Positions 196 to 61,169 of a stretch of DNA of 64,000 bases are shown one piece after another. The stretch is from Vineibacter terrae (GTDB lineage Bacteria > Pseudomonadota > Alphaproteobacteria > Reyranellales > Reyranellaceae): the NCBI RefSeq assembly GCF_008039615.1, contig NZ_VDUZ01000030.1:1-64000 (forward strand), given 5' to 3'. How positions within the stretch are numbered: position 1 is the stretch's first letter; each line of letters begins with the position of its first letter. The translations under genes were made by a program, and so were the position numbers. The notes under the pieces were generated by a model that had not been told where the DNA came from, searched no databases, and saw nothing but the letters and a program-made list of their open reading frames with translations.

Positions 196-230
196 TTCAA
201 AAGAAAAGGCCGGGTCACGAGGACCCGGCC
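196..230 (-). terminator. Rho-independent terminator of the small-RNA candidate
   Basis: On the minus strand a perfect 9-bp stem (GGCCGGGTC / GACCCGGCC, plus coordinates 208-216 and 222-230) with a 5-nt loop is followed directly by TTTTCTTTT. It lies about 335 nt beyond the LysR stop, which already has its own hairpin, so it probably ends a separate transcript. Confidence 0.75.
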
Positions 231-312
231 AAGTCAAACAGGGAGGCTTCACGTCTGGGAGACGTAGGATCCGAAGATCCTTGCCCGGGGAGGCCCCGAG
301 CCCACTGCCGTT
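196..312 (-). ncRNA. Candidate structured small RNA downstream of the LysR gene (AbcR-like)
   Basis: Read on the minus strand, three small perfect hairpins follow one another: CGGGG-CCT-CCCCG (298-286), AGGATC-TTCG-GATCCT (281-266) and ACGTCT-CCC-AGACGT (265-251). They are followed by an unpaired stretch containing GCCTCCC and then a strong intrinsic terminator (230-199). Loops and linkers are rich in CTCCC/CCTCCC, the anti-Shine-Dalgarno type motif of alphaproteobacterial trans-acting sRNAs such as AbcR (alpha-r15). The gene upstream is an LsrB/VtlR-like regulator, and in Brucella and Agrobacterium that regulator controls abcR genes (recalled literature). A weak promoter-like pair (TTGTCT at 347-342, ATTGTT at 324-319) would start the RNA near 312, about 113 nt. 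The 5' end and the family assignment are inference. Confidence 0.5.
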
Positions 313-59931: not shown

Positions 59932-60957
59932 CTACCTGCGCGTGGGGTCGTCGGACACCTGAACCAGCAGCTTGCCGAAGTTGCGTCCCTTCAGCAGGCC
60001 GATGAAAGCCTCGGGTGCGTTGTCGAGCCCTTTCACGACGTCCTCGCGATACTTGATCTTCCCGGCCTTCACTGCCGCCGGCACTTCCTTCCAGAAGCCG
60101 GCCATCTCGGCAAAATGGTCGCTGACGATGAAGCCTTTCACCAGCGCCCGCTTGACCAGGAGCAGCCGCCAGTCCGGACCAGGGTTCATCTGCATCTCGT
60201 TGTACTGCGAGATCAGCCCACACAGCGGCACGCGCGCGAAATCGTTGAGCTGCGGCACCACAGCCGCCTGCACGGCGCCGCCGACGTTCTCGAAGTACAC
60301 GTCGATGCCCTTGGGGCAGGCGGCGCGCAGCGCCTTGAACAGGTTGGCGCCCTCGGCCCGATAATCGACGCAGGCATCGAAGCCGAGCTCCTTGACCACG
60401 TAGTCGCACTTCTCCTTGCCGCCGGCGATGCCCACGGCACGGCAGCCATGCAGCCTGGCCAGCTGGCCCACGACGGAACCGACCGCGCCCGATGCCGCCG
60501 ACACCACGACCGTCTCGCGCGCCTGGGGCTGGCCGATCTGCATCAGGCCCCACCATGCCGTCTGGCCCGGCATGCCCAGGACCGACAGCGCCGCCGAGAG
60601 CGGCGCCGCATCGGGATCGAGCTTCATCGACATGGCGCCGTTGGATACGGCGTGGCTCTGCCAGCCCGAATACTCGACGACGAAATCGCCTTCCTTGAAC
60701 TTGGGGTTGCGTGACTTCAGCACCTGGCCAACCGTGCCGCCCACCATGGCATCGCCCAGGTTGACGTTGGCGGCGTAGCCTTTGGCCTCGCTCATGCGGC
60801 CGCGCATGTAGGGATCGAGCGACAGCCAGATGGTGCGCGACAGGTATTCGCCATCCTTCGGCTCAGGTATCGGCGCGTCGACGACATCGAAATTCGCCAG
60901 CGTCGGCTCACCCTGCGGACGCGACTTCAGCAGCACGCGGCGGTTCATCTCGGCCAT
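59932..60957 (-). CDS. NADP-dependent MDR reductase, CurA/leukotriene B4 dehydrogenase-like
   Basis: A 341-residue zinc-free medium-chain reductase. Family strings are NRRVLLKSRPQGEPTLANF, WLSLDPYMRGRM (near 45), TAWWGLMQIGQPQARETVVV, the nucleotide motif SAASGAVGSVVGQLARLHG and GIDVYFENVGGAVQAAV (near 215). Relatives reduce the double bond of enones such as curcumin or prostaglandin-like compounds with NADPH. GGGAGG precedes ATG 60957. Confidence 0.93.
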   Translation of the reverse strand: MAEMNRRVLLKSRPQGEPTLANFDVVDAPIPEPKDGEYLSRTIWLSLDPYMRGRMSEAKGYAANVNLGDAMVGGTVGQVLKSRNPKFKEGDFVVEYSGWQSHAVSNGAMSMKLDPDAAPLSAALSVLGMPGQTAWWGLMQIGQPQARETVVVSAASGAVGSVVGQLARLHGCRAVGIAGGKEKCDYVVKELGFDACVDYRAEGANLFKALRAACPKGIDVYFENVGGAVQAAVVPQLNDFARVPLCGLISQYNEMQMNPGPDWRLLLVKRALVKGFIVSDHFAEMAGFWKEVPAAVKAGKIKYREDVVKGLDNAPEAFIGLLKGRNFGKLLVQVSDDPTRR

Positions 60958-61169
60958 GGAAAGCCTCCCGATCGGATTGTTGCGGCACCGTAGTCGCATC
61001 GCCGCAGCGATGCCAGCGTATCGGTCCGATGATGGGACTGATGATCTGCTGGGCGAAACCCGGTATCAACCGGGCATCCGGGAACGCCGGACCGGCAGGG
61101 ACGTTGCCTGCCTGCCGCCATCCCGCCCGGGCGCGCCGACACCCTGCACGCTGACGCGAGCATGACCCG
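60958..61169. other. Intergenic stretch without a gene
   Basis: No supportable open frame. It contains several short GC inverted repeats (for example CCCGGTATCAACCGGG near 61060) and presumably the promoter of the CurA-like gene. Confidence 0.4.

Follow-up and report, generated by a model that had tools for sequence, protein, structure and literature searches.

A class-wide family of alphaproteobacterial small RNAs beside LsrB/VtlR-like regulators as a positional counterpart of AbcR

The trxB-lysR-sRNA locus of Vineibacter terrae

The window, by which we mean the whole stretch of 64,000 nucleotides analysed here, is the start of contig C30 in the 8.76-Mb genome of Vineibacter terrae. It carries, on the minus strand, a trxB gene, a gene for an LsrB/VtlR-like LysR regulator directly after it, and beside this a genuine sRNA gene, which is present in a single copy in that genome. 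The nearest named relatives are Reyranella sp. CPCC 100927 (LysR 98% identical) and strain SYSU D60007 (96%). The features, all on the minus strand, are as follows.

1531-2511, minus: trxB, thioredoxin-disulfide reductase (TIGR01292, 415 bits, over the cut-off)
566-1498, minus: LsrB/VtlR-like LysR regulator (Pfam HTH_1 and LysR_substrate; trxB and sRNA as neighbors in relatives); translation may in fact begin at the ATG of 1456 (MDWDKLRIF)
398-412, minus: palindromic operator ATGC-GGGGTCC-GCAT, a T-N11-A LysR-type box (ATGC-N7-GCAT recurs class-wide)
389-401, minus: GCATGGCTGTGAT, an exact copy of the published VtlR box GCAT-N3-TG-N3-T (the same letters are enriched class-wide)
347-352, minus: CATCTT, probable -10 element (TATCTT, TATGTT or TAGGTT at the equivalent place in relatives)
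200-340, minus: predicted sRNA transcript of about 140 nt, probably running from about 340 to 200 (from conservation in relatives, folding and the terminator)
308-336, minus: 5' hairpin 1 (from the fold)
283-301, minus: hairpin 2, GCUCGGGG-CCU-CCCCGGGC, with one G-U pair (stem maintained in near relatives)
266-281, minus: hairpin 3, AGGAUC-UUCG-GAUCCU (two-sided changes at 6/6 pairs in the class-wide alignment A3)
251-265, minus: hairpin 4, ACGUC-UCCCA-GACGU, also drawn ACGUCU-CCC-AGACGU (invariant in the family)
231-250, minus: single-stranded linker GAAGCCUCCCUGUUUGACUU, a putative anti-Shine-Dalgarno seed (near-invariant; resembling SorX and SorY in their 3' part)
199-230, minus: intrinsic terminator with a 9-bp stem (230-208) and U-rich tail UUUUCUUUU

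The RNA folds at -63.1 kcal/mol as against -48.5 kcal/mol for shuffled sequences (z = -3.9), and none of 200 shuffles reached equal stability. An earlier note on this DNA had described a structured RNA at 196-312 with three perfect mini-hairpins, CTCCC/CCTCCC motifs in loops and linkers, and a terminator with a 9-bp stem. The elements indeed lie there, and the three hairpins are present on the minus strand, although the G-U pair in 301-283 makes them not fully perfect; the limits given left out the 5' hairpin at 336-308, as the 5' end lies near 340. The motifs and the terminator were correctly read: CUCCC occurs in the loop of 265-251, CCUCCC in the linker at 246-241, and nine pairs at 230-208 are followed by the tail. 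A coding gene on this strand, which the note had named among the observations that would overturn it, can be set aside: the 113-aa open reading frame over the sRNA (22-363) has no Pfam match, and the indels of close relatives inside the stems are not multiples of three. No Rfam family matches the window at gathering scores.

Upstream of the RNA, the center of the operator lies at about -65 relative to the predicted start, and no recognizable -35 element was found at the sRNA promoter in the window. T-N11-A is the general LysR-type box, and it is contained in ATGC-N7-GCAT. The VtlR box corresponds to the right half of the palindrome plus the letters following it; the box GCAT-N3-TG-N3-T was verified in Brucella and has been put forward for Agrobacterium as well (PMC7486931). 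We also observed an inverted repeat without a T-run, CTTTCCCGG-ATTG-CCGGGAAAG, at 520-541 after lysR.

Conservation, linkage to lsrB and the operator

Of 61 genomes, 44 gave matches in a DNA-level search, that of V. terrae itself among them, and all 31 DNA-level relative loci examined keep the order trxB-lysR-sRNA on one strand, together with an invariant 29-nt core, ACGUCUCCCAGACGUGAAGCCUCCCUGUU, in the sRNA. Among these relatives the stem of hairpin 2 shows paired substitutions and paired deletions, and hairpin 3 and the terminator vary with compensation while the core is unchanged; in folds of the full-length relatives, hairpins 3 and 4 and the terminator are found in nearly all, and the 5' hairpins are variable. 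The hairpin conservation in related genomes on which the earlier note had staked its proposal is thus borne out, with compensatory changes at 10 of the 19 pairs in the family set.

A covariance model of the sRNA (R1), searched against 387 alphaproteobacterial genomes from 263 genera, found matches in 195 of the genomes and 127 of the genera. A LysR gene lies within 1.5 kb at 25 of the 30 best R1 loci. We fetched and aligned 109 further R1 matches, these being the better-scoring ones, and in 70 of them a gene for an LsrB-like LysR precedes the sRNA on the same strand at a distance of up to 3 kb, typically 130-350 nt. These regulators, whose orthology to LsrB was judged by identity and the trxB neighbor, are 46-62% identical to the LysR of the window and mostly accompanied by trxB. 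The opposite relative orientation of lysR and sRNA does not occur among the fetched matches. In the class-wide alignment A3 two-sided changes were seen at 18 of the 19 model pairs, including 8/8 in the terminator and, rarely, 4/5 in hairpin 4; as A3 was fitted to the model these counts are biased towards it, and the size of the effect is given by the slid controls. The covariation score of A3 is 0.548 compared with 0.153 for shuffled alignments, with none of 500 shuffles reaching it; slid partners give no more than 0.118.

The operator is similarly fixed. ATGC-N7-GCAT is present within 260 nt upstream in 53 of the 70 LsrB-adjacent copies, as against 2/70 in downstream control stretches and between 0 and 6 of the 70 for each alternative spacing of ATGC and GCAT from 0 to 14 nt. 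After the palindrome, the remaining letters of GCAT-N3-T-G-N3-T are enriched as well (T in 29, G in 36 and T in 40 of the 53). Six near relatives out of the 31 do not carry the exact palindrome (L003-L006, L008 and L035). In the genome of V. terrae a looser operator pattern has 12 matches versus none for the reversed control; the seven other operator matches examined all lie inside long open frames, and hence we claim no further LsrB regulon.

The sRNA does not lie beside lsrB in 39 of the 109 fetched copies, and 12 of these 39 carry the palindrome. A clear LsrB was absent in 7 of 35 genomes chosen for their orphan or weak sRNA copies. Copies at unrelated intergenic sites were seen at L111, L119, L128, L144 and L147, in some cases where the genome has no clear LsrB. 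The LsrB operator of an orphan copy on the Tistrella mobilis megaplasmid pTM3 (L366:3820-4070) is perfect, and the 8-kb stretch contains no LsrB. At such palindrome-bearing orphan copies, that on pTM3 included, LsrB probably acts from elsewhere. Tandem arrays of two or three sRNAs occur behind lsrB at L074, L158 and L164, and away from it at L144. At L053:70-137 we also noted an int-alpA RNA (RF02996) over its gathering score.

Relationship to AbcR and to the SorX, SorY and MmgR RNAs

AbcR sRNAs are activated by VtlR/LsrB in Agrobacterium, Sinorhizobium and Brucella (PMC8844928, PMC9751625), the controlled RNA being AbcR1 in the first two and AbcR2 in Brucella. They are conserved among many Rhizobiales (PMC9751625), and synteny of the AbcR region has been noted across alphaproteobacteria (PMC8844928). 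The locus of the window shares with this circuit the order trxB-lsrB-sRNA seen in Agrobacterium, the same VtlR box upstream of the sRNA, a CUCCCA in a hairpin loop and an intrinsic terminator. It differs from it in that its RNA lies outside the ar15 model, lacks GUUCCC and has more hairpins, in that it is a single copy in its genome where AbcR is a tandem pair, and in that its LsrB is free of cysteines.

The suggestion of the earlier note that the RNA is an AbcR homologue was not supported in its literal form. The ar15 model (RF02345) has no match in the genome, with none even up to E = 10 across positions 1-700 of the window, and in the large search, where stricter filters were used, it was found in only one of the 387 genomes of the class (G403), which served as the positive control. 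Conversely, R1 scores true ar15 genes below 8 bits and does not recognize them. The suhB model, which the note had also proposed for a covariance search, scores 34.4 bits, under its cut-off of 41. G403 carries two ar15 genes in tandem after trxB-lysR, the first of them behind ATGC-GGACAGC-GCAT-AACTGGCAT, the same operator as that of the window sRNA, and the adjoining regulator is 49% identical to the LysR of the window. A third ar15 copy of G403 is found on another contig (L070).

The other part of that proposal, an sRNA next to a regulator of the LsrB/VtlR type, was supported: the trxB-lysR-sRNA order and the exact VtlR box are as in Agrobacterium and Sinorhizobium, and the linkage, the operator and the compensatory changes described above extend across the class. 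Whether the window itself lies outside Rhizobiales is a matter of classification, as NCBI puts Reyranellaceae in Hyphomicrobiales; a position outside that order holds for Tistrella (Geminicoccales) and for the class-wide spread.

It is conceivable that the RNA is nevertheless a true AbcR (ar15) that diverged past sequence recognition, with both RNAs descending from one ancestral sRNA beside lsrB, and we give this a chance only slightly short of even. The common position, the common operator and the CUCCCA in a hairpin loop, whose letters are identical to the AbcR M1 motif, speak for such descent. So do LsrB loci that R1 does not match with confidence (L172, L173, L175, L176, L177, L186 and L188), where the operator, whole or as a single half, is followed by CUCCC motifs and a terminator in varied arrangement, giving mixed forms. 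Against it stand the near-total absence of RF02345 from the class and the failure of R1 on ar15; moreover, the AbcR M2 motif GUUCCC is absent from the window sRNA, which has CCUCCCUGUU in its place, and the M1-like loop is that of the fourth hairpin instead of the first. Such common descent is compatible with control of the sRNA by LsrB and differs on ancestry only. Position and operator behind lsrB are more constant than the RNA itself. The RNA of the window is a member of a family other than AbcR, spread class-wide and absent from Rfam at gathering scores; it is best described as a positional counterpart of AbcR, probably a functional counterpart, and perhaps shares a common ancestor with it.

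By covariance score the nearest Rfam relatives of the window RNA are SorX (RF02784; 39.8 bits, under the gathering cut-off of 46.6), MmgR/suhB (RF00519) and SorY (RF02651; 31.9 bits, under the cut-off of 111). The 3' module of Rhodobacter SorX and SorY, CCUCCCUGUU-GAC-terminator, is nearly identical to that of the window RNA, and MmgR/suhB shares with it the succession of hairpin, CUCCCU, GACUU and terminator. At none of 20 R1 loci tested did this RNA reach an Rfam gathering score; a further lsrB-adjacent copy, L158, passes the SorX cut-off. These resemblances, with transporter mRNAs as the targets of SorX and SorY, could be read as membership in the SorX/SorY/MmgR group, with regulation independent of LsrB and an incidental neighborhood. 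We regard this as unlikely: SorX is cut from the 3' UTR of ompR-1 with no reported LysR link, no LsrB operator for SorX or SorY is described in those parts of the literature that were covered, the lsrB linkage and fixed operator are far from chance, and LsrB control is itself compatible with a shared 3' module. That the hairpins do no more than end the lysR transcript, as its 3' UTR and terminator, is highly improbable, for although they lie on the same strand 250-350 nt downstream of lysR and 3'-UTR-derived sRNAs such as SorX are known, a conserved operator and a -10-like element intervene between lysR and the RNA, and copies exist far from lysR, including those with an operator and that on the Tistrella megaplasmid.

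A model for the circuit, its targets and its origin

We consider it very probable that the locus encodes an sRNA of about 140 nt that acts in trans, is activated by the adjoining LsrB/VtlR regulator and represses mRNAs by pairing with their Shine-Dalgarno regions. By analogy with the proven cases in Rhizobiales, LsrB would bind ATGC-N7-GCAT at about -65 and recruit polymerase to a promoter that lacks a good -35 element. The RNA would then fold into stable hairpins that leave CUCCCA exposed within a loop, and GCCUCCCUGUU within the linker, and, probably with Hfq, cover the Shine-Dalgarno regions of mRNAs, likely including those of transporter genes, thereby blocking their translation. The motifs of the RNA point to Hfq, to this mode of pairing and to such targets. 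AbcR pairs with mRNAs through CUCCCA and a second motif (PMC5461406, PMC8844928); by the same token the exposed CUCCCA and the linker element probably block ribosome binding sites, and the CUCCC motifs make repression of translation likely. The circuit would work like that of LsrB and AbcR1, with an RNA of a different class-wide family.

Candidate targets were sought among ABC transporter genes by comparing 70 substrate-binding-protein (SBP) genes with 69 short-chain dehydrogenases. Pairing of the linker was stronger for the SBP genes than for the controls (p = 0.018) but no stronger than that of flank-shuffled linkers (p = 0.26); the difference may reflect Shine-Dalgarno strength. The enrichment, suggestive at first look, was in the larger set unspecific beyond that strength. 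Two SBP genes stand out as candidates by long linker matches, one of 11 bp (G000:C38:37526-38536) and one of 9 bp (G000:C27:77464-78504). The linker is matched exactly ahead of start codons at 10 sites, versus 4 for a control pattern, and the majority of these sites are not followed by a convincing gene. Within the window, GGGAGGCTT at 60955-60969 is complementary to the sRNA linker and lies just upstream of the ATG for a 341-aa protein resembling an NADP-dependent oxidoreductase, which may thereby be an sRNA target.

The presence of the same regulator and operator across much of Alphaproteobacteria means that this switch is far wider than Agrobacterium, Sinorhizobium and Brucella; in the literature searched we found no prior description of the sRNA outside Rhizobiales. 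The circuit can be traced through the class by three separately testable features, the regulator, the operator and the RNA; the covariance model is ready for use, the operator is precisely defined, and many genomes await study. An evolutionary scenario to which we give even odds is that the combination of an LsrB operator and an anti-Shine-Dalgarno sRNA forms a module ancestral to Alphaproteobacteria, of which the family described here is the widespread form and ar15 a derived branch in a small group, and that the redox cysteines of rhizobial LsrB are a later addition to a regulator first sensing something else. This opens the question of what the regulator sensed before it gained them.

Agrobacterium LsrB has a conserved cysteine pair, C144 and C273, proposed as a thiol switch (PMC11975290). 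The LsrB-like protein of the window has no cysteine at all, and therefore thiol redox sensing of the Agrobacterium type is impossible here. Cysteines at the C144 and C273 positions are found in 12 and 4, respectively, of 150 relatives of the window protein; the redox cysteines are perhaps a feature of some rhizobial members and not of the whole group. Although LsrB has been studied as a thiol redox sensor, two thirds of these relatives (99/150) are free of cysteine.
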